A stretch of DNA of 64,000 nucleotides from Dolomitihabitans soli (GTDB lineage Bacteria; Actinomycetota; Actinomycetes; Streptosporangiales; Streptosporangiaceae). Of the stretch, positions 2,301 through 48,217 are shown one piece after another. How positions within the stretch are numbered: position 1 is the first letter of the stretch; each line of letters starts with the position of its first letter. The notes beneath the pieces were generated by a model. The model searched no databases and was not told the origin of the DNA. It saw only the letters and a list, made by a program, of their open reading frames with translations. The stretch spans positions 1-64,000 of the forward strand of contig NZ_JAKNTW010000044.1 of the NCBI RefSeq assembly GCF_022213955.1, written 5' to 3'. The position numbers were made by a program, and so were the translations under genes.

Positions 2301-3066
2301 TCTCGTACCTCCAAAAGACCCTCCGTTGGCTGTCCAGAAGGCGGAGCTGCACTTGCCGGGGCCTAGCGGTATGAACACCCGTCAGCGCGTTGAGGAGGAT
2401 TCGGTCGCACTCGCCGATGAGACACCGAGATGGGCCGATGTGCTCGGTGTCCTCCGTGCCCGCAGCTCGGGGGTCACGGTGATCGCTCTTGTGTGCTTGT
2501 GTGTTGCGACGTCGATCTGGGGCCGTTCGGAAGTCGAACTGCCGACGATGGCTTCAGGAATGGCCGAAACGCTCCCGCTGGCCGTGCTCATTCCCCTGCC
2601 GTACGCCTGTGTCGTGTCGTTAGCGCTCAGGAGCGCCATGGCGGACTTCGATCTCGTCGCGGCGCGTTCGATGCGCCTGATCGATTTCGCGTTCCTTTCA
2701 TGGACGCTGATCGCGGCGATATCTCTGTTGTCGCTCGGCGTCACCCTCGCCGATGCCACTGTCCTGCTGCCACTCGTGCTGCGGAACACCCTGTGGTGGA
2801 CTGGGATCGCCTGTGTATCTGTCTGGCTGTTCGGTAGATCACTGGGTTGGGTGCTGCCCGTGACGCTGCTGGTACCGCTCTACGAGTCGGCGAGAGGCGG
2901 AGATGAGTCAGCGGTGTCGTGGGGGGTGCCCAGGTTGCCTGTGGACTCGCTGTGGTCGTGGACCGCGACGGGTTTGGCAGTGATCGCTGGGACAGTGCTT
3001 GTGCTCTACTGCGAAGGCTGGCCGCGCAGGCAATTTGCTCGGCTACGCAGGCGACCGACTGGTTGA
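2284..3066 (+). CDS. Integral membrane protein, third gene of the ABC operon
   Basis: About 260 residues with five or six hydrophobic helices, ending in an Arg-rich cytoplasmic tail. The frame overlaps the end of the permease gene; ATG 2284 is taken as the start because it gives this coupling, but an internal ATG at 2371 is equally possible and would remove a non-conserved-looking leader. Its place suggests an accessory membrane subunit of the exporter. No named family is recognised. Confidence 0.65.
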   Translation: MGADADLVPPKDPPLAVQKAELHLPGPSGMNTRQRVEEDSVALADETPRWADVLGVLRARSSGVTVIALVCLCVATSIWGRSEVELPTMASGMAETLPLAVLIPLPYACVVSLALRSAMADFDLVAARSMRLIDFAFLSWTLIAAISLLSLGVTLADATVLLPLVLRNTLWWTGIACVSVWLFGRSLGWVLPVTLLVPLYESARGGDESAVSWGVPRLPVDSLWSWTATGLAVIAGTVLVLYCEGWPRRQFARLRRRPTG

Positions 3067-3340
3067 CTGTGGCGTTCCCCCGGGTGGGGTGTTCACGAGT
3101 AGGGCTGACCAGGAGGACAATAGGGGTCGAGAAGATCGCTTCCCGATGGGGCGATGATCGTTTCCCGTACTTGCCGCGCCGCCCTGCCACCGCCCGATCC
3201 TCGTCGACGGGGGAAAGACGAGTGGATAGGTGTTCATGGAGGGGCTGGCCTGGCGCGGCAGAGGCGGTGGCGCATCGCGTCTCAACTTCGCGAGTTCGAC
3301 CTGAGGCGAACCGGCCACGTTTTATGCAGTACGTCGCCTG

Positions 3341-3805
3341 CTATGGCGCGCCTGGCAGGTCCCCGCGGCGAATACGCTGGTCGAGCTCCCAAAGCGCCGT
3401 CTTGTCGTCGTCGTAACGCAGCGACTCGTATGCGGCCTGATACGGCAGCCACTGTGTGTCTCGATGCTCCGAGGAGAGCACTATCTGGGCCTTTTCTCGG
3501 GTTACGTCACAGGCGAAGAAGTGCTTGGGCACGATATAGAGGTTGTCGGGCCAGAGCTTGCTCGCCGCAAAGCAACTCTTCTCTACTCCGCTTACCATGT
3601 CGAGCTTGAACAGCGGTCCTCCCGCGGGCAGACCGGTCTCCTCGGCGAACTCGCGACGGGCCGCGCTCTCCAGATCCTCGCCTTCCTCGACGCCGCCGGC
3701 CACGCTCTGCCAATGAGAATCATCCGCTCTCTGGAAAAGAGCGTATTCCGGCATACCTGCAGTTATCCGAAAAGGAAAAACGAGCACGGTGTAGGGCTGG
3801 CGCAT
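3341..3805 (-). CDS. Nudix hydrolase
   Basis: 154 residues. The Nudix box spans about residues 38-60, with the conserved glycine, the REF-EE-G core (RREFAEETGL) and the upstream GGVEEGE. Enzymes of this family hydrolyse nucleoside diphosphates linked to another group; the N-terminal RQPYTVLVFPFR and the spacing to the box resemble the dATP pyrophosphohydrolase-like (NudB) branch, which is only a suggestion. The gene stands alone, facing the ABC operon. Confidence 0.85.
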   Translation of the reverse strand: MRQPYTVLVFPFRITAGMPEYALFQRADDSHWQSVAGGVEEGEDLESAARREFAEETGLPAGGPLFKLDMVSGVEKSCFAASKLWPDNLYIVPKHFFACDVTREKAQIVLSSEHRDTQWLPYQAAYESLRYDDDKTALWELDQRIRRGDLPGAP

Positions 3806-4345
3806 ATGGCGTGTCCGATCTAAGAGGCAATGTCCTTGGATGTTCCGAGCAGCGGGAGAGTGACAGCTCAGCGATTACTCCCTGACGATGGACGGTCTCT
3901 TCTCTCCCGGTCCACGGGCCGCCGGCACCTCCACCTTGCGTCGCTGGCAGCGGCTCATCCTCAACAAGCAGTTCGCGATCTTACTGGGGTCTGCCGGTGC
4001 AACACCGCTGTCGAGCCATCCGGCGGTCTGCAGTCGCGAAGGTGGAGCTGTGCTCGGCTGTGAGGGGTCAGTTGCAGATGTGTCTCTTCACGCGAGCTGC
4101 AAAGCCATCTACAGAAAACTCAGCCCCCGCTCGGCCATCACTCCTTGCAGAGCCGCAGCGATGGCCTGGACGACGGCGGCGGCCGGATGGCCGGACAGAT
4201 CCGCGTGGGGCCAGTTCTCCGGGTCGTCGGCCAACTCCCGGGGAGAGCGGGAACGCCCGCGGCCTCCAACCATGACAAACGACTCCTTTCGGTAGATGTC
4301 GTCGCCCTCCGTAACGGCAGGTTGTCCTGCCGCTATGGATGGGGT
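3806..4345. other. Non-coding or decayed stretch of 540 bp
   Basis: No open frame here has a convincing composition or a recognisable domain. It separates the Nudix gene from the broken integrase and probably includes the former upstream region of that integrase. Confidence 0.4.
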
Positions 4346-5300
4346 GTGACTCTCGACGCGGAAACCTCGCACGCGATCACCGGCTACCGGCCGCAACAGG
4401 CCCCGCCAGAATGGGAACAGATCGCCGGGCACGTGCGCATGCTGGTCGCCGCCAGCGCCGACCGCTCCCCCTACCGAGTGCAGCGGCTGCTCACCGCGAC
4501 CACCCGGCTGGCCGTGTGGTGTCACCGCTCCGGCCTGCCCGATGACCCGGAAGTGTGGCTGCGGCACGAGACGATCGACGCGTTCGTCCTGACCGGCTGC
4601 ACCGACCTGGCCCCAAGCTCGGCGCAGACCTACCGGTCCTGGCTGCGGCACATGCGCGCCACGCTCGCCTGGCTGGAACGCGGCGAACAGGCGCCGCCGC
4701 CGATGAAGGCCCCAAGAAGGTCAGCCCGCCGTACTCGCCGGCCCAGTTCGGCCGCCTTCGCGGCTGGGCCGAACGCCTGCCCGGCCAGGCCAGAGGCGAC
4801 GCGCTGGCGTTGATGGCGCTCGCCTGCGGCTGCGGTCTGACCTCTGGGGAAGTGGCCGCCGTCCGCACCAGGCATCTGCGCATCCTGGACTGCGGCGCGG
4901 TCGTGGTGACCGTCCCCGGCACAGACCGGTTGATCGTCTGCCGCGCAGCCTGGGAGGACATCCTGGCCTACGCCGCCGACCAGCCCGGCGACCGGTTCGT
5001 ATTCCGGCCCAGGCGCACCGCCCGGCACGCCAAGAACCTGTTCAGCTCCTGGACAGCCCGCCACACCCCGACCGGCGGCCTGCCCGCCCTGTCGGTGCGC
5101 CGGCTGCGCTCCTCCTGGATCGTCGAACTGCTGAGCGCCCGCATCGACCTGGGCGTGGTGGCCGCCGCGGCCGGGATGAGCACCTCCGCGCTGGCCCGCT
5201 ACCAAATTTCGTCCCCGCCTTGGACGAGCCCACCGCGGTCGCACTGCTGCGCGGCAGGCCCGGCCCACCCGGGCTGCCCATCGCCGCGCGCGGTGCTGAC
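4346..5300 (+). pseudogene. Tyrosine recombinase/integrase pseudogene with two frameshifts
   Basis: Start GTG 4346. The N-terminal SAM-like segment (TSHAITGYRPQQ, then SSAQTYRSWLRHMRA) is read in one frame to about 4709, where loss of one C in a C-run shifts to a second frame (KKVSPPYSPAQF, then LALMALACGCGLTSGE, the usual first catalytic-domain helix). A second loss, of one A near 5204, shifts to a third frame that supplies the C-terminal ARYQNFVPALDEPTA. With the two bases restored the whole reads as one integrase-like protein of about 310 residues. The tail runs straight into a foreign transposase fragment. Confidence 0.7.
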
Positions 5301-5862
5301 CTGCCTGCTGCTGTCCATCAACCACACCGGCAAGGCCACACTCGTCGAGGCCTGGCGGATCGCCGCGTTCTGCCTGACCGCCGCCGCACGCCACCGGCTC
5401 GGCCTGCCCGACATCAACCCCGAAGATATCCACCAGGTGCTCGCCTCCTCCCGCCGCTTCTACCGGGTCTTCGACCGGCTGACCACCGTGCTGGATCCAG
5501 CCCGCCACGATCGGCGCGCCCGCCTGCCCCAGCATCAGGCCGACGCGCTGGCCACCGCCTGGGAGGATGACGACCCAGCACACTCGCATAAGCGGGAACT
5601 GCTGCAGGACATCGTCACCGCGCTGGTGCTCACCCCAGTGCGCTGGGCCAAAGGCCGGGGCCACCTCCGCCACTTCCGCGGCGACGTCGGCATCGACACC
5701 ACCGCCACCCCGGTCTTCGCCCGCCCACCCCACGCCCGCCGCTCCACCGGCGAACTCATCGCCTCCACCGAGATCACCGCAGGCCGGCACCACTCGGCCG
5801 GCAACGGCCCACCCGAGTACGGCTACAGCGCCACCCTCACCGTCGCCGCCCGCACCCGCTGA
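5281..5862 (+). pseudogene. Transposase fragment, family uncertain
   Basis: A continuous frame of about 193 residues beginning near AVLTCLLLSINHTGKATL and ending at TGA 5860-5862. It resembles the N-terminal half of actinomycete transposases of the type with LDPARHDRR and FGYSATL motifs; the region that should follow the GYSATL motif is missing. It lacks a start of its own because its 5' end is fused to the integrase pseudogene, and its 3' end abuts an ISAs1 fragment. Confidence 0.55.
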
Positions 5863-6714
5863 CCGCCCGCCTGCAGGCGCAGGCCAACACCGCACCCACC
5901 TCCACCCCCCGACACCAGCGGCAACACCGACGGGCGATCGCGGTGGACGGCAAAGCACTGCGCGGCGCACGCCTGGCCCCGGGCGCCACCGTACATCTGC
6001 TCGCGGCCCTCGACCACACCTCCGGCCTGGTACTCGCCCAGACCGACGTGGACGGCAAAACCAACGAGATCACCCGATTCCAGCCCTTACTGGAGGGCAT
6101 CGACCTGGACGGATGCGTCATCACCGCCGACGCCCTGCACACCCAGCGCGATCACGCCACCTTCCGGGTGGAGCAGAAGAACGCCCACTACGTGCTGATC
6201 GTGAAGAAGAACCAGCCCACCCTGCACACCCAGCTCAAGCGACTGCTGTGCAAACACGTCCCCATCGGCGATCGCCGGCGTGACCGTGGACACGGCCGCG
6301 ACGAACGCCGCACCCGGAAGGTCCTCACCGTCAAAACCGGGCTGCTGTTCCCCCACACCATCCAAGCCATCCAGATCAAAACGCCAGGTCAGGAACATCA
6401 AGAGCGGCAAATGGCGGACCGTCACCGTCTACGCCATCACCAGCCTGCCCACCCTCCAGGCCGCCCCCGCCGACCTCGCAACCTGGATCCGTGGCCACCG
6501 GAGCATCGAAAACAGACTCCACCACGTCCGCGACGCCACCTACGGTGAAGACCACTCCCAAGCCCGCACCGGAAACGCACCCCGCAACATGGCCGCCCTG
6601 CGCAACCTCGCCATCGGCGCCCTGCGTCTGACCGGCGCAGCCAACCTTGCTCAGGCCATCCGCCGACTCTCCCGCGACGCCACCCGCACCCTGCCCATCC
6701 TCGGTCTCACGTGA
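5850..6714 (+). pseudogene. ISAs1-family transposase, 5'-truncated and frameshifted
   Basis: The catalytic part of an ISAs1 (IS4-like DDE) transposase: AVDGKALRGAR, HLLAALDHTSGLVLAQ, TADALHTQR and [12 protein letters not shown] in one frame, then after one extra A in the AAAA run at 6378-6381 the frame changes and continues with [30 protein letters not shown] and [17 protein letters not shown] to the natural end at 6714. The N-terminal quarter of the family is absent, replaced by the preceding transposase fragment. It cannot make a full protein. Confidence 0.88.
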
Positions 6715-6782
6715 TCAACAAGCGTTCAACCGACTTTGCCGGGGCCCTGGGACCAGGCCAAGTCCAAGGACTTCCACGTCGG

Positions 6783-7445
6783 TTAACCAAGTTCGCCAGC
6801 CAGTCCGGCGTTCTTGATCCAGCGGCCCCATCGGGCACTTCGCTCAAACTGCGCGGCTATCGTCTTGCCCGATGGCAGAGTGCCATCCGGATGGCGATGA
6901 ACCTGCGCCCACTGCCATGCTGCGCGATGAAGGTCGACGACTCCGAGGGCACGAGAACGGACGGAACCATCAACTGAGGCGAGATTCTGGATCGACTCCT
7001 CGACGTGGTGGCGTTCCGATCCTGCCAAATCCACGTTGACGGATACGGGTACCGCGACACGGCGGATCTGGGACATGAGGAGTTCGTAGCTGCCGATCAG
7101 CGCAGCCGAGGGCCAGGCGGCGATGATGCGGCCTACGATGCTGGGCTCGGCGACGGCGACGTTGGCACCGAGACTGGCAAGGCTGCCGATGATAAGTAGG
7201 CTCCAGGCCAGCAGCCCTCCCCGGGACCCGTACCGGTTGGCCAGAAGGATCGACATCGAAGCGACGACGATAGTGCCGTCCACAGCGAGCGGGATGAGCA
7301 CGGCCGCCAGCTGGTCCTCACCGTGACGGAGGCACAGCTCATGCATGTGCCGAAACGAGACGACTGCGGCGATCAACGCGAGAATCGCAACCGACGCTAC
7401 GGTGGTCCGCTGGATTCGACATACAGCCAAACGAGAAGGCTCCAT
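6783..7445 (-). CDS. DUF2637 membrane protein (mobile-element associated)
   Basis: 220 residues. The N-terminal 140 residues carry four membrane segments with the DUF2637 signatures FRHMHELCLRHGE, PLAVDGTIVVASM, ASLGANVA and AAWPSAALIGSYELLM. The remainder is a soluble tail ending in a short HTH-like segment (SGKTIAAQFERSARWGRWI). Proteins of this family are common in actinomycete integrative elements and plasmids, usually near replication or transfer genes. It overlaps the recombinase gene upstream by 49 bases on the same strand, so they probably share an mRNA. Confidence 0.88.
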   Translation of the reverse strand: MEPSRLAVCRIQRTTVASVAILALIAAVVSFRHMHELCLRHGEDQLAAVLIPLAVDGTIVVASMSILLANRYGSRGGLLAWSLLIIGSLASLGANVAVAEPSIVGRIIAAWPSAALIGSYELLMSQIRRVAVPVSVNVDLAGSERHHVEESIQNLASVDGSVRSRALGVVDLHRAAWQWAQVHRHPDGTLPSGKTIAAQFERSARWGRWIKNAGLAGELG

Positions 7446-9172
7446 GCATGCTCACCGCCCCTGACCAGGGAGAACGAGTCGGGTGGTCGCCGTGAACGGC
7501 ATGTACGTATCGTGGGTGTCCCCCCTCGGACACACACCGCACGCACATGTGGGGGTTCCGGTTCAACCCGGGCCTCCACATACTGCTTTTCGGGGTAATA
7601 CGTGAGCTTCAGGCCGAGCTTGGCGTAGAGGTCGGCCTTGTCGTCCGAGTCCGCCCCGCCGACCAGCCGCACCAGATCCCCGACCTCCTCGATCATCGAC
7701 CTGATCTCCTCAACGCTGATGCGTTGCGCGGCTGGCAGGGCCGCGGCTTCTCCTTCCAAGCGGGCGCGTTCGCTTTTGGTCTCATTGATCCAGGAGGCGA
7801 TCTCGATCGGGTCGCCTCCTGCGTCAAGCGCGGACCGGTACTGGTTGAGTTTCCGATCGCACTGGCCCAGGCGTTTCCGCAGGTCATGGAGTGCGGCTTC
7901 GTTGGGATCGACGACTTGCTCGGCCATGGCCGCGATCGTGCGTTCCAGCGAGTCCGGCCCGAACGCGGTCCCCAGCCAGCCGTCGACCTCGTCGAGAATC
8001 TCCGCCTCCCGCAAGTAGACGACCTTGGGATGGTCGAGGTCGTTCACGATGGCGTACTGCTCGGGGAAGCGGCACCGGTAGTACGCCTGCCGGTTGTTCC
8101 AGTTGCCCTGCATCCGGCGCTCGCAGTACCCGCAGAACAGAACCCCCCGGAAGGCATACGGACGCGGGGTCGGGTGCGGACGCTGGCTGTACTGGCCCCT
8201 GGCACGCGTGGCGAGGACCTCCTGCACGCGCTGAAACTCCTCGACGCTCACGATCACGTCATGGACGGGATGCTCCGACCAGATCCACGTGTCCTTCGTG
8301 TTCCACCGCTGCTTGGTCGTCGTCCCCAGCGCGACATTCTCGACGTCCAGCAGGACCTCGTCCTTGCGCTGCTTGTTCCAGACCTGGTGACCCGTGTAGC
8401 GCGGGTTGGTGAGAATGACCCGGACGGCGTACTTCGACCACGCCCGCTGATCGCGATGCTTGTTCCGCCCAGGATCACTGGCCGACGGCGACGCAACGCC
8501 CTGCCGCGTCAGATCCTCCGCGATGTCCAGATAGCCCCGCCCCTTGAGGAACTCCCTGAAGATCCACCGCACCACGCGCGAGGTGACCGGATCAGCCTCA
8601 AGCCGCCGCAACCTCCGCCCGTCGGCCGCCTTGCTGGGGTGCGGGTGCGGCCCGGCATCGGCGAGCACATACCCGTACGGCGGACGCCCACCCAGGAACC
8701 TGCCCTCCGTCGCCGTGATCGCCGCCATGGCGGCCCGCACCCGGATCTTGATCCGGTTCCGCTCCCCCTTCGACAACCCGCCGAAGACACCCATGATCAT
8801 GTCGTGGGCCTCATTCACCGGATCGATCGGCCCGCCAACCTCGGGCACCCACAACGGCACCCCAAAGTGCTCGAACAACGGGAAGGTGAGGCTGTACTGG
8901 TTCCCGTAGAACGCCCGCTGCGGCTCCCCGATCACCACCGCGTCGAAGCCCCGCAACGGATCCTTCAACTCCTCGATCAACGCCGCCGCGTACGGCCGAA
9001 GCTGCCAGGGGATTGAGCGGGACTTATCGACGTCGAAGAACTCCGCGACGACCTCCCCGCCCCGCGAGTCGATCAGCGCCCGCGCCCGATGCAACTGCCA
9101 GGCCCTTGATGCCTCCGGGTCCTGGTTGTCCTCGGTCGACACCCGGCCATAGAAGCCGAACCTGATCGTCAT
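7397..9172 (-). CDS. Large serine recombinase (site-specific integrase)
   Basis: 591 residues from ATG 9172, which follows AAGGAG at good spacing and overlaps the stop of a small upstream gene (ATGA). Resolvase domain at residues 1-150 with the catalytic serine in YGRVSTED (Ser12); recombinase domain with GGRPPYGYVLAD and NPRYTGHQVWNKQ; zinc ribbon with FCGYCERRM and YYRCRFP; then a coiled-coil stretch around residues 440-510. It would integrate and excise the element in which it lies. The last 40 residues after EPEPPHVR are low in conservation signals and run past the start of the DUF2637 gene, so the stop may be recent. Confidence 0.93.
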   Translation of the reverse strand: MTIRFGFYGRVSTEDNQDPEASRAWQLHRARALIDSRGGEVVAEFFDVDKSRSIPWQLRPYAAALIEELKDPLRGFDAVVIGEPQRAFYGNQYSLTFPLFEHFGVPLWVPEVGGPIDPVNEAHDMIMGVFGGLSKGERNRIKIRVRAAMAAITATEGRFLGGRPPYGYVLADAGPHPHPSKAADGRRLRRLEADPVTSRVVRWIFREFLKGRGYLDIAEDLTRQGVASPSASDPGRNKHRDQRAWSKYAVRVILTNPRYTGHQVWNKQRKDEVLLDVENVALGTTTKQRWNTKDTWIWSEHPVHDVIVSVEEFQRVQEVLATRARGQYSQRPHPTPRPYAFRGVLFCGYCERRMQGNWNNRQAYYRCRFPEQYAIVNDLDHPKVVYLREAEILDEVDGWLGTAFGPDSLERTIAAMAEQVVDPNEAALHDLRKRLGQCDRKLNQYRSALDAGGDPIEIASWINETKSERARLEGEAAALPAAQRISVEEIRSMIEEVGDLVRLVGGADSDDKADLYAKLGLKLTYYPEKQYVEARVEPEPPHVRAVCVRGGTPTIRTCRSRRPPDSFSLVRGGEHAWSLLVWLYVESSGPP

Positions 9173-9354
9173 TTCCCCTGCTCCTTCACGGTCTGTGGCT
9201 GCCTGACGCGGGAAGCGGCCTTGAGCAGGATCCGCAGCAACACGCCGGCCGCGCCGGGGGTGAGCCGCAACTCCTCCCCCGGCACAACCACACGCAGCCC
9301 ACGACCTGCCCCGCTCACGACCAGCCCCAACTCGGAACGAGTCCCCACGCCCAC
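9169..9354 (-). CDS. Small protein translationally coupled to the serine recombinase
   Basis: 61 residues from GTG 9354, ending in a TGA that overlaps the recombinase ATG as ATGA. It contains a conserved-looking core (GLRVVVPGEELRLTPGA) followed by a basic helix. The overlap suggests it is made together with the recombinase. No family is recognised; a directionality factor is one possibility but nothing in the sequence proves it. Confidence 0.5.
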   Translation of the reverse strand: MGVGTRSELGLVVSGAGRGLRVVVPGEELRLTPGAAGVLLRILLKAASRVRQPQTVKEQGK

Positions 9355-9547
9355 CAGCGACCGGTCCGGGCCCTACGGGCCCACCCACCCCCGGCGGTCC
9401 TACATGACCGCTCACCTCGATGATCAATGTCAACCACGGTCTGGACACGACCTCCCGCCCGTCCAGCCACACGCGGTTGTCCACAGCCTGTGGACAACGA
9501 AGAGAACCATCGCTCGTACGCCGTCGTGCTACCGGGGAACGTGACCC

Positions 9548-10405
9548 TCAACCCTCTTCACCCCGCTTGCGCAGAATGAGAAGGTCCTCGTGGGCCCCGG
9601 CACACCCCACGAGCCCCTTCTCCTGGTTCCTCCGGGCCTCCAGCATCTGGAAGAACGACGCCCGATTCACCAACCCGCCATCACGCAACCCGCACAGCAA
9701 CGCCACCAAGCGGTGCGCGAGCACCAGGCCGGCCGCCTCCGCGCTCTCGATGACCTGACCGGGAAGGTCCACAAGCCGCCCGCCGACCCGGATCGGCCGA
9801 ACCGTGATCGCGACGACTCCGCCCGGCCGCAGCAGATCGCCACATCCCGCGAGGATCCGCCCGAAGCCTTCCATCAGCTCAGGCAACCTCTGGTGAGCGA
9901 GGTTGCCCTTGTCCGTGGAGTAACGATGGTTCCACTTCTGAACCGGACCACCGCCACCGTCCCGAGTCCCCGAACGGATATGCCCATGGGTCTGAGCCCC
10001 GTAAGGCGGAGAGGTCAGCACCAGCGCGGCCTTGTCCCGGAAACTCGTAAACACGGCCGCGATGTTCCGCGCGTCCCCACAGGCCACCTGGGCAATCCCC
10101 GTCGCCCCTTGAGAGCGGGCGTGCTGGATGTTGGCGGCGGTGAGTCCGGCGAAGTCCGCCTCGTACTCCATCCCCACCGCATCCCGCCCCAGGTGCATCG
10201 CCTCCACCAAGGTGGTCCCGATCCCGCACATCGGATCCACCACCAATTCACCCGGCTCGGTGAACGCGGAAATGACCTCGAAGGCGATCGACGGAAGCAT
10301 CTTGCCCGGATGCCTCATCGATTCCGCCACATACCGGCCACGCCGCTGCACCCGCGACTGCAGCTGACCCGTCGCCAGCACCGACGACAGAACCTTCTCG
10401 TTCAT
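9548..10405 (-). CDS. DNA methyltransferase (adenine/cytosine-N type) of the integrative element
   Basis: 285 residues. Motif I is VVDPMCGIGTT (about residues 55-65) and catalytic motif IV is TSPPYG (about 131-136); the order motif I before IV and the HPGKMLP box just ahead match solitary DNA methylases carried by actinomycete mobile elements. The SPPY form is most often linked to N4-cytosine methylation, but this is not decided here. The gene is coupled by a four-base overlap to a related but degenerate gene upstream. Confidence 0.85.
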   Translation of the reverse strand: MNEKVLSSVLATGQLQSRVQRRGRYVAESMRHPGKMLPSIAFEVISAFTEPGELVVDPMCGIGTTLVEAMHLGRDAVGMEYEADFAGLTAANIQHARSQGATGIAQVACGDARNIAAVFTSFRDKAALVLTSPPYGAQTHGHIRSGTRDGGGGPVQKWNHRYSTDKGNLAHQRLPELMEGFGRILAGCGDLLRPGGVVAITVRPIRVGGRLVDLPGQVIESAEAAGLVLAHRLVALLCGLRDGGLVNRASFFQMLEARRNQEKGLVGCAGAHEDLLILRKRGEEG

Positions 10406-11325
10406 CGGGCGCCTCCGGCAGTACGCGCGAACAGGCAGACATCCGCGTGAACCGACACCACCGGCGGCAGCTCCCCAGACTGAGCACAGCGAAGCTGCGC
10501 CAGTTCCGCCGGACCAGACTGGACAACGAGTGCGTCCCCTTCGATCGGGACGCGCAGCGCGATGACGTGCTGGACGTAGGCGAGCCCGGCACGCGCCGCG
10601 CGATGGATGATCCCCGGCGCGAGGTCCACCAGCCTGCCCCGCTCATGCCGGGCTGTAGTGATCACCGCCAAGTGACCCCCCGGCGCGAGAACGCGCCGCG
10701 CATCATCCAGAAACCGGCCGACCTGTGGCACCCCGAGCGTCGGCGGCTCCGCCCTGCACGGAGGACAAGACACCCCGGCCGAGCCGACCGCTCGCCCGGC
10801 TTCCGGATACGGCGGAAGCGCCGCGATCAGCAACTCAACCCGGCCCTCCAAACCGCACAGCGCTTCCCGGAGCTCGTGCGGCCCATGCGGGCGCAGCCTC
10901 ACCGCCGCCCGCTGGTCCGCCGGAAGCTCCTGTCGCAGACGGCCGGCGAGGTGCTGCGCGACCGGGAAACGGGTAACGCACCCGATCCCCATCCGCCCCA
11001 TCTCGGCCGCCGCGACGAGCACCACCTCGCTCGTCGTGAAGACGTCCGCGACGATCCCACCCGAACGCGTGCAGGCCCCGATCAGATGCCGCGCAAGCTC
11101 CCGCCCCACGGCCTGGCGATGCCGCCCGCACACCACCTCGGCAGCGGGACGATCCTTGACGTTGGCCCCTACGGGCGTGATGTCGGAACACAACCACACC
11201 GAGAGCGGCAACAACCGCCTCTCAGCACCCCGCGAGCCCTTCGGCCGCGGCCCTTCGCTCTTGCTCAATCGACGGTGACCCGAGACGGCCACCCGCTCCC
11301 ATGCACTGAAACACCAGCTGATCAC
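10402..11325 (-). CDS. Degenerate methyltransferase-like partner of the element methylase
   Basis: About 307 residues; the true start may be internal because the first 60 residues look unconserved. The protein is laid out like its downstream neighbour, but the glycine-rich motif I is replaced by VADVFTTSEVVLV and motif IV by AALPPYPEAG. The C-terminal half (LVDLAPGIIHRAARAGL, LFARTAGG) still parallels the active methylase. It probably cannot bind S-adenosylmethionine in the usual way and may act as a structural or specificity partner. The ATGA overlap supports joint translation. Confidence 0.7.
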   Translation of the reverse strand: MISWCFSAWERVAVSGHRRLSKSEGPRPKGSRGAERRLLPLSVWLCSDITPVGANVKDRPAAEVVCGRHRQAVGRELARHLIGACTRSGGIVADVFTTSEVVLVAAAEMGRMGIGCVTRFPVAQHLAGRLRQELPADQRAAVRLRPHGPHELREALCGLEGRVELLIAALPPYPEAGRAVGSAGVSCPPCRAEPPTLGVPQVGRFLDDARRVLAPGGHLAVITTARHERGRLVDLAPGIIHRAARAGLAYVQHVIALRVPIEGDALVVQSGPAELAQLRCAQSGELPPVVSVHADVCLFARTAGGAR

Positions 11326-11370
11326 AGCAGGTTGGAATCTCCCCTTGTAGTCCTTCCTTCAGCCTCGGTC

Positions 11371-11697
11371 CTACCCTCCTTCTGCGCGACCCGCCGCTTG
11401 GTGTGGAGTCGTCTGCGGACCACCGTCCCGGGCCATGTGCTCGCCGTCGACGTCCCCTTTCGCGGTCGTGAACAGCCGTTGCATGCCATCGGGTGCCCTC
11501 TCCCCGGCGTATTCGGCCAGCGACCGGCCGGTCTTGCGTTCCAGCCCGGACGGTAGCCCCTGGAGACAGGCGTGGGCGCCGGCGAGTAACCGTACCTCCC
11601 GTCGCCGGAACCGGCCCTTCACCTGGGCGAACGCGTCATCCAATCCGGCCTGCAGACGAGGCGCGTCGAGGTGTTCTGCTCTGGCCAACGCGGCCAA
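11371..11697 (-). pseudogene. IS701-family transposase, N-terminal fragment (left copy)
   Basis: About 90 residues match the N-terminal part of IS701-type transposases: FAQVKGRFRRRE, GLPSGLERKTGRSLAEYAG and APDGMQRLFTTA, ending around GDVDGEHM. The catalytic domain is missing; after about 11430 the frame reads unrelated sequence. The 5' end faces the TnsA-like gene. The same N-terminus occurs inverted at the right end of that insert. Confidence 0.8.
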
Positions 11698-11865
11698 CGC
11701 ATGATCTTCAGTTCCATCACACCTGAATGATCACAGCGGTGGCCGTCTGCGCGTCACTCGAGTAGGCGTATGCCCCGGCATGCGTACCCATGCGGGGCCA
11801 TGGACAGGAATGAACCGGTAGAGCGGGTAGATCTACCCCACATCCCGATCTACGACTGGAGTACT
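11592..11865. repeat. Left arm of a 274-bp inverted repeat
   Basis: Positions 11592-11865 match 13641-13914 in inverse orientation with a single mismatch (a G/A difference in the segment that encodes KGRFRRR). Weaker similarity continues outward to about 11565. The arm holds the upstream region and first codons of an IS701-type transposase gene, with the IS start side facing inward. The two arms flank one gene of foreign character, so together they look like the ends of a small composite element. Confidence 0.9.
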
Positions 11866-11959
11866 GGTCGGACGACCAGCTCGTGGGTGCCGCGACTCAC
11901 ATTGGTCTTCGTCACTTGCTGATGAGGCGCTGATCAACAAAGCTCTATGGGACGACGGG

Positions 11960-13615
11960 ATGGAGCGCGCATTGTCTGACCTGACTGACGACAGCTCAGC
12001 CACAAGACCGGTCACGGTCACACCAACACGGCGGCACGGAGCCCGGTGGGAACGGCAGGAGATCAATGACCTCCTCATCGAGCTAAGAGCGGGGATACCT
12101 CTTGAGGAAATCGCACACCGGCACGAGCGCACGACTGGTGGCATCCAGTCACGCCTGTCCGCGTTGATTCCTCCTACAGAGGGTGTGGACGCCGCCGATG
12201 CCTACAACTGGCATCGAACACATCTCGATCGCATCCTGAGCATCTGGCAGACCATCACCGGTACCCGCTTAAACGCCGACTGGCACGCGAGGTTTCATGC
12301 CCGACCAGAGATCGCTGACTTGTTACGTTATCCGGACGACAAGCTTGAGCGGGCGGGCCAGGCATTGCTGGAAAACCTCGGCCGCTTGCCGTTGACGCAA
12401 TGGACAGTGGAATGCTCCTGGCCAGGACTGGGCCTGCTCGACCTGAGCTGGGATGCGCTCCAAGGCGCCGATGAGGACACCCTTATCCAAGTCCGCGAGC
12501 TGCCGGCAGCGGCGATCAGTGGTGTCATAGACTGGCGTCGTCGTGATGTCCTCGCGCGCAGGCTCGGCTTGTACGACTATCAACCACAGTCGTTGGAAAC
12601 CGTCGGGGCAGCGCTCGGGGTGAGCGCAACGCGAGCACGTCAACTCCAAGAAAAGGCCATGCTGCGCCTCCATGCCGAACACCGGCTGCCGTGGGCAATC
12701 GACCACGTCCGTGGCGCCATCAAACAGGTGCTGAAGCAGGCCGCCAACGCCGCAATCGGTACTTCCGAGTGCTTGCTCAATCTATCTGAGGCCGCGCTGC
12801 CGAACACGAATCCACGCCTGGCCGTGCGGTTCATGGCCATACTCACCAAGTACGGCCAGATAGAAAGCAGACATCTCGCGGCGGAGGTTACCAGCATCCT
12901 CGCCCGCCGACGTGAAGAAGAAGTGCAGCAAATCCGGCAGGAAAGTGTAGTAGGGCGGGCTACTGCCCGCTGCGCCGAGATTCTCGACGCGGTTGCGTGG
13001 GCGCCCGAATTGGGCGCTCCTCCAGACTTTTACCAGGTACGAGCGCAACGTGCAGTCAACGAACGGGAACACAGCGGCCTGTGGCACGCTCCTAAGCTGG
13101 GCCGGGAAGTGGCCTACGAGTCGATTCTAGAACTTCGGGTGATCAAGCTCTTCGATCTCGCCCACCAGATCGCCTGGTACTGTGAGCAACCTGTGGCTAT
13201 TCCCTATCGATTCAATGGTAAGGAACGCACCTACTATCCGGACCTCCTCGCCGTGACGAATGACCAGCGGTGCTTCCTGATCGAGGTCAAACCGCGATTT
13301 GAGATGGCCACGTCGATCAACCGCGTTAAGTTCAACGCAATGCGCCAATACTGCGCCGAGCGCGGATGGGGCCACGTCGTGACCGACGGCGTTCGCCATA
13401 TGCGGCAGTTGGAGAGCCGGATAGTAGATCCGACGACCATGAAGCGACTGACCAGCGCCCTGATAGAACGAGATCTATATTGGCCGGATATCCTGCGCTT
13501 GCGTAAGAACGGGCCGCTGACGAACAGCGACATCGCCGCTGCCGTCATTCAACAGGGCTGGGACTTCCAACTCGGCCCGTACTACTTGTCGATGGGCCCC
13601 TCTCGGGTGCTGTGA
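11960..13615 (+). CDS. HTH / TnsA-like nuclease fusion protein
   Basis: 551 residues between the two inverted repeats. Residues 20-70 form a helix-rich DNA-binding segment with ARWERQEINDLLIELRAG and IAHRHERTTGGIQSRL, a gcrA/Myb-like arrangement. Around residues 212-240 (LETVGAALGVSATRARQLQ) lies a sigma region 4-like HTH. The C-terminal third reads as a PD-(D/E)xK nuclease of the TnsA type: YESILELRVIKLFD at about 386-399, YYPDLLA at about 424-430, FLIEVKP at about 438-444, then NAMRQYCAERGWGHVVTD. The E, D and ExK positions fit a working active site. No TnsB, TnsC or other Tn7-like gene is nearby. The frame stays open upstream of ATG 11960 into the repeat arm but without a start codon. Confidence 0.7.
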   Translation: MERALSDLTDDSSATRPVTVTPTRRHGARWERQEINDLLIELRAGIPLEEIAHRHERTTGGIQSRLSALIPPTEGVDAADAYNWHRTHLDRILSIWQTITGTRLNADWHARFHARPEIADLLRYPDDKLERAGQALLENLGRLPLTQWTVECSWPGLGLLDLSWDALQGADEDTLIQVRELPAAAISGVIDWRRRDVLARRLGLYDYQPQSLETVGAALGVSATRARQLQEKAMLRLHAEHRLPWAIDHVRGAIKQVLKQAANAAIGTSECLLNLSEAALPNTNPRLAVRFMAILTKYGQIESRHLAAEVTSILARRREEEVQQIRQESVVGRATARCAEILDAVAWAPELGAPPDFYQVRAQRAVNEREHSGLWHAPKLGREVAYESILELRVIKLFDLAHQIAWYCEQPVAIPYRFNGKERTYYPDLLAVTNDQRCFLIEVKPRFEMATSINRVKFNAMRQYCAERGWGHVVTDGVRHMRQLESRIVDPTTMKRLTSALIERDLYWPDILRLRKNGPLTNSDIAAAVIQQGWDFQLGPYYLSMGPSRVL

Positions 13616-13640
13616 TGCACCATGGAACTGAACTACTGGT

Positions 13641-13914
13641 AGTACTCCAGTCGTAGATCGGGATGTGGGGTAGATCTACCCGCTCTACCGGTTCATTCCT
13701 GTCCATGGCCCCGCATGGGTACGCATGCCGGGGCATACGCCTACTCGAGTGACGCGCAGACGGCCACCGCTGTGATCATTCAGGTGTGATGGAACTGAAG
13801 ATCATGCGTTGGCCGCGTTGGCCAGAGCAGAACACCTCGACGCGCCTCGTCTGCAGGCCGGATTGGATGACGCGTTCGCCCAGGTGAAGGGTCGGTTCCG
13901 GCGACGGGAGGTAC
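13641..13914. repeat. Right arm of the 274-bp inverted repeat
   Basis: Inverse copy of 11592-11865, differing by one base. Similarity continues weakly to about 13944 (VRLRARACLEY then stop), where the left copy has a few extra bases. The inner boundary is sharp: both arms end at AGTACTCC/GGAGTACT, and the same CTGGAGTACT occurs again at the outer side of this arm near 13937. Confidence 0.9.
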
Positions 13915-13946
13915 GTTTGCGCGCCCGCGCCTGTCTGGAGTACTAG
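13797..13946 (+). pseudogene. IS701-family transposase, N-terminal fragment (right copy)
   Basis: About 50 codons of the same transposase N-terminus as at 11371-11697 (EHLDAPRLQAGLDDAFAQV, GRFRRREV), ending in TAG after CLEY. It reads away from the TnsA-like gene. It is shorter than the left copy and cannot be functional. Confidence 0.75.
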
Positions 13947-14186
13947 GAAAACTTTGACGGGCCGCTCGGTGGTGCGCTTATCCGCAGGTCAGCCATCTGT
14001 TGGCGAGCTTGGCGTGATCTTTTAGCGCGCCTTCGGGGGATGTCTCTCGCTACTGGTCAGGCGCTCGATGGAGCGTCTGCGGCAAATCTCTGGTGTCTGC
14101 ATTTCATCCTTTGCCATCCCAAGTTCTTCCCATTCGGTGGTCGAGACCTGGATCGACCACACCAGCACGACCCACGGGGAGACTCC

Positions 14187-14981
14187 ATGGCCCTCAGCCT
14201 GCAGGACAACGCAACCTCGAAGAGCTTCAACGACAACGCCCTAAGCGCGGCGGACAGGACGTTCCAGCTCCTGATCACCGGGCCGAGTCCGCTCTCGGTA
14301 GACGGCCGTCTCATCGGTCACGGAGCGCCGATGCGTTCGATCGATCTCGGTGAGTTGAAGGCTTTGCTACTCGCACCGCATGCCGACGACGAGCTGAAGG
14401 ATGCCGTCTGGGCGCACCTCGTGCGACGTTCTCGGTGCGACGGTCCAGCGTGGGTGATCGGGTGTGTGGGGGTGGCGATGCCGGGGCTGAAGAATTTGGC
14501 CTCGCGGACCACCCAGGGCTGCCCGGTGCACGTGGTCGACGACGTCGTCTCGGAGATGGTGACGAGCTTCGTCGCGCAGCTCGGCCGGATCGATCTCGAC
14601 CGGCCGAACATCCTGCCCCGGCTGTTGATGTGGGCGAGGAAAGGGGCGCTTCGGGCGAGAGCGCGTGAGATCGCTTCCGTCGAGTTGTGCGGCGAGACGC
14701 CGGAACAGGTGGCTGTGGTTCCGCAACAGGTGATCGCGGAGCCGTTCCTGGTGCTCGCCGAGGCTGTCCGGTGTCGGGTCGTCACCTGCGATGAGGCGAA
14801 GCTGATCAATGCGACGCGCCTGGAAGGCCAGGCATTGCGGGCGTACGCGGAGCGGTCGGGAGTCCCGGCGGATCGGCTGTACAAGCGGCGGCGGGTGGCC
14901 GAAGCGCGATTGGCGCGAGCGATCGAGGAGGGTCAAGTCTCGGTCAGCTGCGACGGGCTGGGCTCCAATTTCGGGAGCTGA
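14187..14981 (+). CDS. Unidentified protein of the transfer module
   Basis: 264 residues from ATG 14187, which follows GGGGAG at seven bases. Helical, with a C-terminal basic HTH-like segment (GQALRAYAERSGVPADRLYKRRRVAEARL) similar to sigma region 4 or replication-protein tails. It precedes the pilin-like and TrbL-like genes on the same strand, so it probably belongs to the conjugative part of the element. No catalytic motif is visible. Confidence 0.6.
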   Translation: MALSLQDNATSKSFNDNALSAADRTFQLLITGPSPLSVDGRLIGHGAPMRSIDLGELKALLLAPHADDELKDAVWAHLVRRSRCDGPAWVIGCVGVAMPGLKNLASRTTQGCPVHVVDDVVSEMVTSFVAQLGRIDLDRPNILPRLLMWARKGALRARAREIASVELCGETPEQVAVVPQQVIAEPFLVLAEAVRCRVVTCDEAKLINATRLEGQALRAYAERSGVPADRLYKRRRVAEARLARAIEEGQVSVSCDGLGSNFGS

Positions 14982-15164
14982 GTCGGTGGTTCATGCATAT
15001 CAGCCGTGATCACGGCTCGGGGTGGAGTTCCGGGGGCGATCGCCCGTTCCCATCAGGCCAATCGTCCCTCGTCCTTTGAAGGAGGACACCCATCCCGGAC
15101 CGCTCCGGGCCTGTGATCACGGCTGGCTGCCCGTTCAGGACCTCTCGTTCTTGGGAGCCATGTC

Positions 15165-15563
15165 ATGAAGCCGTCTCGGCCGTCTCGGCCTTGTCCGTTG
15201 TTCGTTGTCCGGGTTCCGGCAGGGGTGAGCTGGACTCGGCGTGGTGTCGCGTCGCTGATGTGGACGGGCGGATGCACGGTGGCCGCGCTGACCGTGCCGG
15301 GGATCGCCGAGGCGATGACCGCGCTGGCCGACGCCTCGCTCGACCAGGTCATCACCAACCTGCGGAACGTGGTGGTCGGGTTGCTCGTCGGACTGGCCAC
15401 GCTGTTCTTCACCATTGGGGGAGTCCGCTACATCCTGGCCGGCGGAGACCCCGGAGAGGTCGAGGCCGCCAAGAAGACGCTGCGGTACGGGGCGCTCGGG
15501 TACGGGGTGGCGGTGCTCGCGCCGGTCCTGGTGCAGATTCTGCAGCGGATCGTGGGGGCCTGA
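15165..15563 (+). CDS. TrbC/VirB2-like pilin or small conjugation membrane protein
   Basis: 132 residues with three hydrophobic stretches. After a signal-like first segment the pattern is VITNLRNVVVGLLVGLATLFF, then GGVRYILAGGDPGEVEAAKKTLRYGALGYGVAVLAPVLV. The GG(V/I)RY-ilaGgdPgEVe-aKkt-l box is typical of the actinobacterial TrbC/VirB2-like family, thought to form part of the transfer channel. It lies one base from the next gene, which fits a TrbL partner. Confidence 0.78.
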   Translation: MKPSRPSRPCPLFVVRVPAGVSWTRRGVASLMWTGGCTVAALTVPGIAEAMTALADASLDQVITNLRNVVVGLLVGLATLFFTIGGVRYILAGGDPGEVEAAKKTLRYGALGYGVAVLAPVLVQILQRIVGA

Positions 15564-15564
15564 C

Positions 15565-17370
15565 ATGGCCCGCACCCACCGAGGGGCGGTCGGGCTGCTC
15601 GTCTTCTTGGCGCTCGGCGCCGCGCTCGCCTCGGTACTGATCAGCGGACGCGCGCTCGCCTCATCCTCGGCACCAAGTACACCGCCTTCACCGGCTCCCA
15701 CCGCAACGCCTTCTCATGCTCCCAGCCCGACGCCGTCGCCTTCGGCCGTGGCGCCGGAGCAGGAGTGCGGGTTCATCGACGCGGCCTGTGAAGCACGCCA
15801 AGCGGTCAATGGGTGGTTCACGCATCTGGTGGAGTCGGCGTCCAAGCCGGTGTTCACGATGCTCGGGTCGACCGTACTGGCGACGCCGGAGTTGAACTCC
15901 CCGGGGATGGCACGAGCCCGGCAGCTGTGGGAGGTGTCGCGGACGATCGCGAACACCTGCTTCGTGCTGCTGGTGACGGCCGCGGGCGTGATGCTCATGG
16001 CCGGGCAGGCGCTACCCGGGGAGAGTTCGGCGCGGGAACTGCTGCCACGGCTGGTGTGGGCGTTCCTGGCCGCGAACCTGAGTCTGGTCGCGATCAGGTA
16101 CGCGATCACCTTGGCGAACGGGCTGAGCCAGGCGTTCCTGGCTGACGGGGCAAGCCGAATCGACCCGGAATCGGTGTTCAAGGTCATCAACGGGACGATC
16201 CTGGCGGGGATCGCCACTCACGGCGTGTTCTTCGACCTCGCGACTGGAACCATTCGCTCGATCGCCAGCCCGAGCTGGGACGTCGAAATCCTCGACGCCG
16301 CCGCAGGAGTCCGCCTCTGGTGTGTCAACGAGGCCGGCCGCTCCCGCCTGCACGCCGACCGTGGCGGTTCCCCGCTCCCTCTCCCCGATATCCCGCCCGG
16401 CGTCATCTCTGCCCTGTCCCTGTCACCGGACGCCTCCCTCGCGGTCATAATGATCAACTCTGCGGCGAGACCAGCAGAGCTAGCGGTCTTGGACTTGGCC
16501 CGCCAGGAGTTCCGATATCTCACCGACACCCGACCCCCCGCGCTGCACGTCATCGACCCCATCGCCCCCGAGCTGATCACCTACCCGGCCCGTGATGGAC
16601 GCGGCGTCCACGCCCTGCTCTACCGCCCGGACGGCCCAGGCCCTCACCCGGTCCTGCTCTCCATCCACGGCGGTCCGGAATCCCAGGAACGCCCCATCTA
16701 CGCCCGCTCTGGCCTGTACCAGCACCTCCTCCACCAGGGAATCGCCATCCTGGCCCCCAACTTCGCCGGATCCACCGGCTATGGCACCGCCCACCAGAAA
16801 CTCATCTACCGCGACTGGGGAGGCATCGACCTCGACGACCTGGACCACGGCATCAAATACTTGCACACCCTCGACTGGGCCGACCCGAACCGCCTTGCCG
16901 TCATGGGCGTTTCCTACGGTGGCTTCGCTGCGCTGTCCTGCCTGGCCCGCCTGCGATACCCATGGGCCGCGGGGGTCTCCATCTGCGGCCCGAGCAACCT
17001 CCTTACCTTGGCGAAGGCGTCACCACCCACCTGGAAGGCGTTCGTCGCAACCGTCCTCGGTGACCCCGACACCCGCGCTGAACACCTACTAGAGCGCAGC
17101 CCCGTCACTCACGCCGACGGCATCAACGCTCCCCTGTTCGTCATCCAGGGCGCCCACGACCCACGTGTCCCCCAGGCCGAATCCGACCAGATCGTCACCC
17201 GCCTGCGCGAACGCGGCGTCGAAGTCCGCTACGACATCTATCCCGACGAAGGCCACGGCTTCACCAACCGCGCCAACGAACTGACCGCGTACGAGGCAAT
17301 CAGCGCCTTCCTCCACACCCACCTGATCGCCACCACCGCCGACCACTCCGAACCGCTCCGCGTGGGCTGA
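15565..17370 (+). CDS. Chimera: TrbL-like transfer protein fused in frame to an S9 prolyl oligopeptidase domain
   Basis: 601 residues. The first 225 look like the N-terminus of a conjugative TrbL/VirB6-type membrane protein: signal peptide, Pro/Ser-rich linker, CGFIDAACEARQAVNGWF, and membrane helices (TCFVLLVTAAGVMLMAG, LLPRLVWAFLAANLSLVAI). At about 16225-16245 (HGVFFDLATGTIRSI) the sequence changes to an S9 family peptidase: part of a beta-propeller, then the alpha/beta-hydrolase domain with Ser in GVSYGG (about 449-454), Asp in GAHDPRVP (about 530) and His in DEGHGF (about 563). All three catalytic residues are present, but most of the propeller is missing. Such a fusion is best explained by a deletion joining two unrelated genes. 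Whether the product is stable is unknown. Confidence 0.8.
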   Translation: MARTHRGAVGLLVFLALGAALASVLISGRALASSSAPSTPPSPAPTATPSHAPSPTPSPSAVAPEQECGFIDAACEARQAVNGWFTHLVESASKPVFTMLGSTVLATPELNSPGMARARQLWEVSRTIANTCFVLLVTAAGVMLMAGQALPGESSARELLPRLVWAFLAANLSLVAIRYAITLANGLSQAFLADGASRIDPESVFKVINGTILAGIATHGVFFDLATGTIRSIASPSWDVEILDAAAGVRLWCVNEAGRSRLHADRGGSPLPLPDIPPGVISALSLSPDASLAVIMINSAARPAELAVLDLARQEFRYLTDTRPPALHVIDPIAPELITYPARDGRGVHALLYRPDGPGPHPVLLSIHGGPESQERPIYARSGLYQHLLHQGIAILAPNFAGSTGYGTAHQKLIYRDWGGIDLDDLDHGIKYLHTLDWADPNRLAVMGVSYGGFAALSCLARLRYPWAAGVSICGPSNLLTLAKASPPTWKAFVATVLGDPDTRAEHLLERSPVTHADGINAPLFVIQGAHDPRVPQAESDQIVTRLRERGVEVRYDIYPDEGHGFTNRANELTAYEAISAFLHTHLIATTADHSEPLRVG

Positions 17371-47140: not shown

Positions 47141-48163
47141 TCAGATCCGGCTCTGGCACGAATGCGGTGGTAACGGACCGTGAATGGCCGGGGAAACTCC
47201 GGACAGCTTGTCGGCTCTCGTCGTAGTGAAGATCAGCGGTCGTAGGGTGTGCGCGGCGATCTGCATGCCTTGCAGAGTCTGCTCGAGTGCGCCACTCCAT
47301 ACCGAGTCTTCGTGCTCGACAGCGACATCGCCGTCATAGTCGGCAGCGTAAAGCGCGTCGATAATCTGGTTCCAGTTGAGTTGTCCGCGGCCGGGAACGC
47401 GATAGCGCCACCAGCCGACGTCGGTGGGCGAGGTCCGTCCGGCCGTCTTGCCGAAGACCCCGTAGCGGGTACGTGCCCGATCGTCGATCTGGATGTCTTT
47501 GGCCTGAACGTGGCCGACGTAGCCGGCTTGCAAGGCATGTTCCAGCGCGTCGAGAGGGTCGATGCCGAGCCAAGGCAGGTGGGAGGGGTCGTAGGTGAGG
47601 CCGAAGCCGAGATCGGCCATCCAGTCCCATAGCTCCGGCGAGTAGGCGAGGTTGCCGGGATATCCGTCGGGATGCCAGCCTTCCATCGGGCAGTTCTCAG
47701 CGAGCAGCTTCACGCCGCGGTCATCTGCGTACCTGGTCAGTGGGGGCAGGTACTGTTCGGCCTGTTTGAGGTTGTCGGCCACCGTCGAAGTGACGTCGCG
47801 ACCGATGAAAGTGGTGACACGCCGGACGCCCAGGGCCGCTGCCGCATCGACGCATGCCCGTAGATGCCGGTGAATATGCTCCCGTTCCGTAGGATCGCAG
47901 TGCAAGTTGTTGCCACAGTAGGTCACCGTGGAGATGGTCAGGCCGTGCGTGTCCAGCAGCTCGCGCACACGGGCGCCTTCATCGGCGGTGAAGCCGGCCA
48001 CGTCGAGGTGGGCGGCTTGGTGCACGTGCTCGCTGCCGACCGGCCAGGCCGCCACCTCCAGCGCCTCATATCCGGCCTGTGGCGCCCAGGCGGCAATCTG
48101 TTCCAGGGACATCCGGCCAAGCGCAGCCGTGAGCAATCCAAGCCTCAATTTTCCTGACCTCAC
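47141..48163 (-). CDS. Sugar phosphate isomerase/epimerase-like protein
   Basis: About 340 residues, an AP endonuclease/xylose isomerase-type TIM barrel: LRLGLLTAALGRMSLEQIAAW, YEALEVAAWPVG, TVTYCGNNL, LAENCPMEGWH, LTYDPSHLPWLG and VAVEHEDSVWSG. The metal-binding Glu, Asp-His and Glu of the family are present. GTG 48163 is chosen; a TTG 12 bases further in (after AGGTCAGGAAAA) is also possible. The substrate is not shown. It stands alone between the toxin-antitoxin pair and the TPR gene. Confidence 0.82.
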   Translation of the reverse strand: MRSGKLRLGLLTAALGRMSLEQIAAWAPQAGYEALEVAAWPVGSEHVHQAAHLDVAGFTADEGARVRELLDTHGLTISTVTYCGNNLHCDPTEREHIHRHLRACVDAAAALGVRRVTTFIGRDVTSTVADNLKQAEQYLPPLTRYADDRGVKLLAENCPMEGWHPDGYPGNLAYSPELWDWMADLGFGLTYDPSHLPWLGIDPLDALEHALQAGYVGHVQAKDIQIDDRARTRYGVFGKTAGRTSPTDVGWWRYRVPGRGQLNWNQIIDALYAADYDGDVAVEHEDSVWSGALEQTLQGMQIAAHTLRPLIFTTTRADKLSGVSPAIHGPLPPHSCQSRI

Positions 48164-48217
48164 TCTCTGTACTACTTCTTCATGAGCCGGGTGTGTAAGC
48201 GTGCGGCGCCGCATTCG

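Follow-up and report, generated by a model that had tools for sequence, protein, structure and literature searches.

A predicted sigma region 4/TnsA-like nuclease gene, probably mobile cargo, between decayed IS701 copies in an actinomycete integrative element

The 64,000-nt stretch of Dolomitihabitans soli DNA analysed here (the window) carries a gene for a 551-residue protein. The evidence tips, by a little, towards a stand-alone DNA nuclease gene that is mobile cargo, probably serves defence, sits in a slot of an integrative-conjugative element (ICE) and is flanked by decayed IS701 copies. This reading builds on features that are sequence-based, namely domain make-up, catalytic motifs, purifying selection, the variable slot, arm-free homologs on other mobile elements and the nature of the inverted arms that flank the gene. 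In the model that we propose, the region-4-like helix-turn-helix would read DNA and the TnsA-like PD-(D/E)xK core would cut it, most likely protecting the carrier element and its host from other mobile DNA. The actinomycete ICE would have received or captured the gene in its variable slot, and two copies of one IS701-family element would have come to flank the gene with their tips inward. These copies would then have decayed, the right one by internal deletion and the left one by truncation. The cutting of DNA, the defence role and the order of events are what we infer.

Results

Domain make-up of the 551-residue protein

The ORF is intact and holds the following features:

11960..13615, + strand: 551-aa sigma-70 region-4/TnsA-like nuclease gene (ORF list, Pfam; dN/dS 0.28 against the Nonomuraea homolog)
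12035..12172, + strand: possible N-terminal helix-turn-helix, residues 26-71 (kept in the plasmid homolog; weak PHROG matches)
12536..12670, + strand: sigma-70 region-4 helix-turn-helix, residues 193-237 (Pfam Sigma70_r4, PF04545, E 2.3e-8; lowest dN/dS of six segments)
13166..13381, + strand: TnsA-like nuclease core, residues 403-474 (Pfam Tn7_TnsA-like_N, PF08722, E 1.1e-14; profile match to solved TnsA)

An earlier note on this DNA described two DNA-binding segments joined to a TnsA-like core. Sigma region 4 and the core stand; the N-terminal segment (residues 26-71) has no Pfam match and is suggested by weak signs. These are PHROG matches (residues 22-71 at E 3.1e-6, to a family of unknown function; residues 27-69 at E 0.0083) and, in a model of otherwise low confidence, helices with a block pLDDT of 61-79. 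The motifs near the nuclease core (E387/E391, D428 and E442-K444) are invariant in a three-protein alignment of the window, Nonomuraea and plasmid proteins. When a profile of the nuclease region, made from three sequences, was compared with solved structures, its best matches were two TnsA-containing sequences (E 2.4e-6 and 4.4e-6), which align with it in the YES..E, PD and ExK motifs; those that follow, at E 0.29, are unrelated. The nuclease part also has PHROG matches, at E 1.4e-12 to a family named 'head closure' and at E 7e-7 to an endonuclease family. The profile searches support the predicted nuclease fold, and structure modelling lends it weak support. The full-length model, with a mean pLDDT of 42.6, was left out of the fold search; the AlphaFold model of the nuclease domain, made from a two-sequence alignment, reached a mean pLDDT of 44.5, and its best three Foldseek matches were TnsA chains (E 2e-3 to 2.2e-2, none at or below 0.001).

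Simple counting against the Nonomuraea homolog gave a dN/dS of 0.28 overall, with 0.38 for residues 1-100, 0.28 for 101-185, 0.10 for 186-250, 0.51 for 251-354 (the linker), 0.14 for 355-475 and 0.41 for 476-551; by this measure the gene is under purifying selection. The 551-aa ORF is the single Pfam TnsA-like_N match in its own genome, where a protein search also found, at C43:179295-179615, a more distant TnsA-like stretch that matches weakly (E 3.6e-5; 27% over residues 368-475). At E ≤ 0.1 the window protein matched 0 PADLOC families.

A variable cargo slot in the integrative element

Four backbone features frame the slot:

7397..9184, - strand: large serine recombinase (the listed ORF reaches 9484; Pfam; homologous DNA in L060, L061 and L063)
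9548-10405 and 10402-11325, - strand: two N6/N4 DNA methylase genes (Pfam; homologous DNA in L060 and L061, and in part in L062, L063 and L064)
14187..14981, + strand: gene of unknown function to the right of the slot (identity 77-81% in the five closest genomes)
15165..15563, + strand: type IV secretion pilin (Pfam)

The insert had been thought to split an integrative element. It does lie inside such an element, and rather than splitting it, fills what on sequence comparison is a variable cargo slot, since related elements carry differing DNA between the same backbone flanks. In BLAST alignments the left backbone homology ends at 11337 (L060), 11441 (L061), 11337 (L062), 10513 (L063) and 11343 (L064), and the right one starts at 14123, 14123, 14117, 14121 and 14053, respectively; weaker pairwise alignments push the right start to 13943-13984. 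The slot DNA differs in each of these five relatives, with transposases and unrelated ORFs (ORF lists, by eye). In a sixth stretch, L065, the match is confined to the right part and a short segment near 7.9-8.1 kb. The G+C content of the gene is 60.5%, against 67% in the flanking backbone. Linkage of the gene to the adjacent methylases was considered and rejected: homologous methylase DNA is retained in related elements whose cargo is different. The methylases belong to the backbone, and their place beside the slot implies no linkage.

Two further observations concern the surroundings. The ORF at 15415-17370 (+ strand) begins with a secretion-type N-terminal part and continues as a prolyl oligopeptidase (S9) domain. 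Within this ORF, at 16234-16240, the BLAST homology to L060-L064 ends, and there is thus probably a rearrangement at this point. At 4555-6714 (+ strand), overlapping ORFs in different frames resemble a decayed DDE transposase by eye, with no Pfam match for 4555-5862.

The inverted arms

The gene is flanked by the following IS-derived features:

11444..11863, - strand: left fragment of an IS701-family element; its 5' tip (11863) faces the gene, the transposase start reads left, and it ends at about 11444 (L046 alignment, tip scan)
11864..11867, no strand: CTGG beside the left inner tip (measured intact relatives have YTAR there)
13639..13642, no strand: GTAG beside the right inner tip (tip scan)
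13643..13942, + strand: right copy of the IS701-family element, reduced to 300 bp by an internal deletion; its 8-nt tips are TACTCCAG and CTGGAGTA (alignment, tip scan)
13943..13946, no strand: CTAG beside the right outer tip (weak backbone similarity starts again here)

As first noticed, near-identical inverted arms surround the one intact ORF: 11592-11865 and 13641-13914 are reverse complements over 274 nt with 1 mismatch, and they extend to 291 nt at 98% in an ungapped search. In positions 9000-17000 of the window, a repeat search (seed 12) found them as the sole inverted pair of at least 20 nt, far above chance expectation. Each arm holds an outward-reading start of an IS701-type transposase gene, an identification based on alignment to L046, which shares 88% identity with 185 nt of the arm and whose homologous ORF is DDE_5 (E 9e-50). 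The left fragment owes its IS701 name to this alignment; its own transposase ORF has no Pfam match. The arms are the 5' ends of an IS701-family element, their tips directed inward to the 551-aa gene.

The right 300-bp unit keeps both 8-nt tips, the inner at 13643 and the outer at 13942, and the GTAG and CTAG around it agree in 3 of 4 bases. Aligned to L046, the left fragment runs beyond the arm to about 11444, and ends inside the transposase gene at most 3 bp from the end of the L061 backbone homology (11441); the tip scan, covering 11000-14500, found no left outer tip. The earlier note had proposed a look for target duplications outside 11565 and 13944; the outer ends carry TGCT (11438-11441) on the left and CTAG (13943-13946) on the right, that is, no duplication. 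Among fetched loci scanned for tips, four related IS elements showing a facing tip pair measured 1,439-1,498 bp and had perfect 4-bp duplications (TTAG, TTAA, CTAG and TTAG); in L046 the 5' tip TACTCCAG directly follows CTAG. The arms are ordinary IS701 remnants, broken pieces of a common jumping gene. That one difference in 274 marks a recent arrangement, as had been argued, is unsafe: directly beyond the 274 nt the two copies differ by several mismatches and gaps totalling 6 nt, so that gene conversion between the arms may explain their near-identity as well as recency does.

Does the same arrangement occur elsewhere? The genome of origin holds no third near-identical arm copy, only one partial match at 74%. 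It has two long IS701-type transposase matches and two short ones; an intact parent IS copy was not found there, and a strict YTAR-tip pattern gave no match. Arm DNA matches 51 of 250 family genomes, the own genome included (E ≤ 0.001), mostly in the transposase start, and with at most three candidates scored per genome the full arm matches in the own genome only. No arms were seen at the homolog loci L043 (whole; BLAST and repeat search), L019 (4000-9500), L041 (1-3000) and L042 (whole; repeat search for these three), where the longest pairs measured 31, 25, 56 and 36 nt, at 74-77%, the 56-nt pair being made up of two tRNA genes. The search for the same gene with the same arms at other sites, which the earlier note had proposed, thus yielded no second site in the own genome and arm-free genes at the four homolog loci examined. 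As a refutation the note had named a gene that never has the arms and keeps to a single genomic setting: the arms are absent at the homolog loci examined, but the settings differ.

Relatives in actinomycetes

One locus from the genome collection, L043 of Nonomuraea sp. PA05, encodes a homolog with 66% identity. It lies in an island of about 5.4 kb (2517-7988) between a tRNA-Lys gene and a direct repeat of part of that gene, at least 49 nt long and running from 2546 (in the tRNA gene) and from 7940. There are two other island genes (ORFs of at least 120 aa, overlapping antisense ORFs excluded): one encodes a tyrosine integrase, the other an Mrr-type protein that PADLOC classes with type IV restriction (mREase_IV, E 3.1e-143); this restriction-gene neighbour is seen in one genome. 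In PADLOC the homolog itself matches only MzaA (E 1.2e-4), through its helix-turn-helix. DNA of the restriction gene and the homolog matched five plasmid records, all in the restriction gene, leaving the homolog uncovered.

Two f6 homologs (L044, 6253-7503; L045, 5530-6786) lie beside the same tRNA Gly-Cys-Val cluster. Their nuclease motifs are changed from PD to PT and from ExK to DxQ, and they may represent a non-cutting branch, part of the family having another role. A third f6 match (G849) has one internal stop.

The sigma-region-4/TnsA-like family looks rare. In a single-protein search 59 of 60 genomes matched, outside the own genome in single regions only, and none of the 59 others held a relative over most of the protein. 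Profiles matched 2 of 295 other genomes at E 1e-12 and 3 of 393 others at E 1e-15, in overlapping genome sets and with matches that took in either the half with region 4 and the nuclease or just the nuclease part. Searches of genome contigs (with the single sequence), viral contigs and phage records gave nothing informative.

Homologs on plasmids

A plasmid homolog with the same architecture is 29% identical over residues 26-533; RefSeq names it TnsA endonuclease N-terminal domain-containing protein, and PADLOC gives it only SspB (E 7.7e-4). At E ≤ 1e-5, 295 of 72,556 plasmid records match, TnsA-domain-only matches such as that of Nitrosophilus included, and one covers at least 80% of the query in one place. 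That many of these matches have low coverage comes from the alignment being local: L020, for example, encodes a full-length protein that hardly differs from that of L019. Among 5,426 E. coli genomes, 256 have a match, 207 of them over at least 80%; the 261 places are all on plasmids and 0 on chromosomes. The homolog is a gene of I-complex (IncB/O, IncK, IncZ) plasmids. Two plasmids inspected in full have the gene between excA and a Hok/Gef gene, and in a third record, which stops there, part of the gene follows excA. In a fourth record, an E. coli plasmid (L071, 2501-2713), most of the homolog is gone from this usual place.

This gene has been published as pCT_066: the knockout primer agrees exactly with L019 and L020 over part of its length, and the pCT record (NC_014477; PMC10286972) is matched at 47352-48452, inside the published primer span of 47320-48609. 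The gene was published as a 'putative sigma factor', and its loss left stability, conjugation, growth, biofilm and competition unchanged (PMC4083329); the available text of that paper mentions no phage test of the knockout. The main text of PMC10286972, as available, contains neither 'sigma factor' nor 'TnsA'.

Discussion

What is of interest in this locus is the gene and not the inverted repeats, which only looked novel. The 'putative sigma factor' of resistance plasmids such as pCT gains a testable reading, that of a nuclease with a sigma-fold DNA reader, and a plasmid gene is linked to an actinomycete island with a restriction-enzyme neighbour. The idea of a single-gene nuclease captured as cargo fits the variable slot, the plasmid homologs and the tRNA-Lys island, where the neighbour is a type IV restriction gene. 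A defence role of the sigma-region-4/TnsA-like protein is plausible; the pCT_066 knockout without a phenotype, the lack of a fitting PADLOC model and the altered motifs in L044 and L045 count against it. A more specific proposal, to which we give little credence, is a single-protein defence common to actinomycete islands and enterobacterial conjugative plasmids and hitherto taken for a sigma factor: the nuclease would find foreign DNA through its sigma region-4 fold, by a promoter -35-like sequence or by docking to RNA polymerase, and would cut there. We hold about as doubtful that the protein is a regulator, a sigma-like factor as proposed for pCT_066, whose nuclease domain is structural or inactive. 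The published name, the region-4 segment as the best conserved part and the altered motifs of the two f6 homologs would suit a regulator; Pfam, however, lists no sigma region 2 at E ≤ 1, the nuclease motifs do not vary among the window, Nonomuraea and plasmid proteins, and residues 355-475 have a dN/dS as low as 0.14.

How did the gene come to lie between two IS remnants? It could be the centre of a decayed composite transposon, in which the outer ends of two IS701 copies served to bring the gene into the slot, the left copy losing its outer part afterwards. This is the alternative that we take most seriously, and still an unlikely one: the same IS lies inverted on both sides with almost identical arms, and the right outer tip with its CTAG adjoins the point where backbone similarity restarts, but a left outer tip and an outer duplication are missing (TGCT against CTAG), no intact parent copy was found in the genome, and the homolog loci examined lack the arms. 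That the gene belongs to a small non-autonomous element which an IS701 transposase moves in trans through the arms, the other suggestion of the earlier note, is poorly supported and in our judgement very improbable. Long, nearly identical inverted repeats, a right 300-bp unit with both 8-nt tips and two long IS701-type transposase matches in the genome speak for it, yet the tips point inward, the left outer tip and a duplication are missing, the arms recur in the genome as one 74% partial match only, and homologs were found without such arms. A captured cargo nuclease is the better fit. We can hardly credit a relic of a Tn7-like transposon that lost TnsB and TnsC: a TnsA-like core is present, but neither partner appeared in the Pfam matches of ten neighbouring ORFs (4.5-20 kb), which bears out the observation already made at this locus, or in the annotation around the two inspected plasmid homologs.

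Comparison with known systems

Three identities were rejected. A sigma factor proper has to be set aside with region 4 present and region 2 missing among Pfam matches at E ≤ 1, and a non-autonomous IS701 element on tip orientation and the missing left tip and duplication. IbfA, a phage-interference gene of IncI1 plasmids, is different, being described as an ATPase-TOPRIM protein (PMC12111858, as far as its available text goes). Among the open-licence papers listed, the parts available yielded no description of a sigma-TnsA fusion as a nuclease; the available part of PMC3401170 treats Tn7-like transposons.

IS701-family insertion sequences share the tips TACTCCAG and the transposase start with the arms, and the relatives' duplications fit YTAR; in contrast to these two-tipped relatives, both window copies are incomplete. 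The pCT_066 homologs differ in setting, between excA and Hok/Gef, and the one plasmid stretch searched is without a long inverted repeat. The NCBIfam family NF033179 (Actinobacteria TnsA-like subunit) matches residues 364-480 of the window protein (E 2e-18), but at 66.6 bits, below the family cut-off of 110, and leaves the N-terminal half uncovered; several relatives' genomes carry short TnsA-like ORFs of this matching region alone. With TnsA of Tn7 and Tn7-like transposons the window protein has the PD-(D/E)xK core and the motif alignment in common, along with a weak fold match. It differs from TnsA in standing apart from TnsB and TnsC among its ten neighbouring ORFs and in being fused to a sigma region-4 helix-turn-helix.
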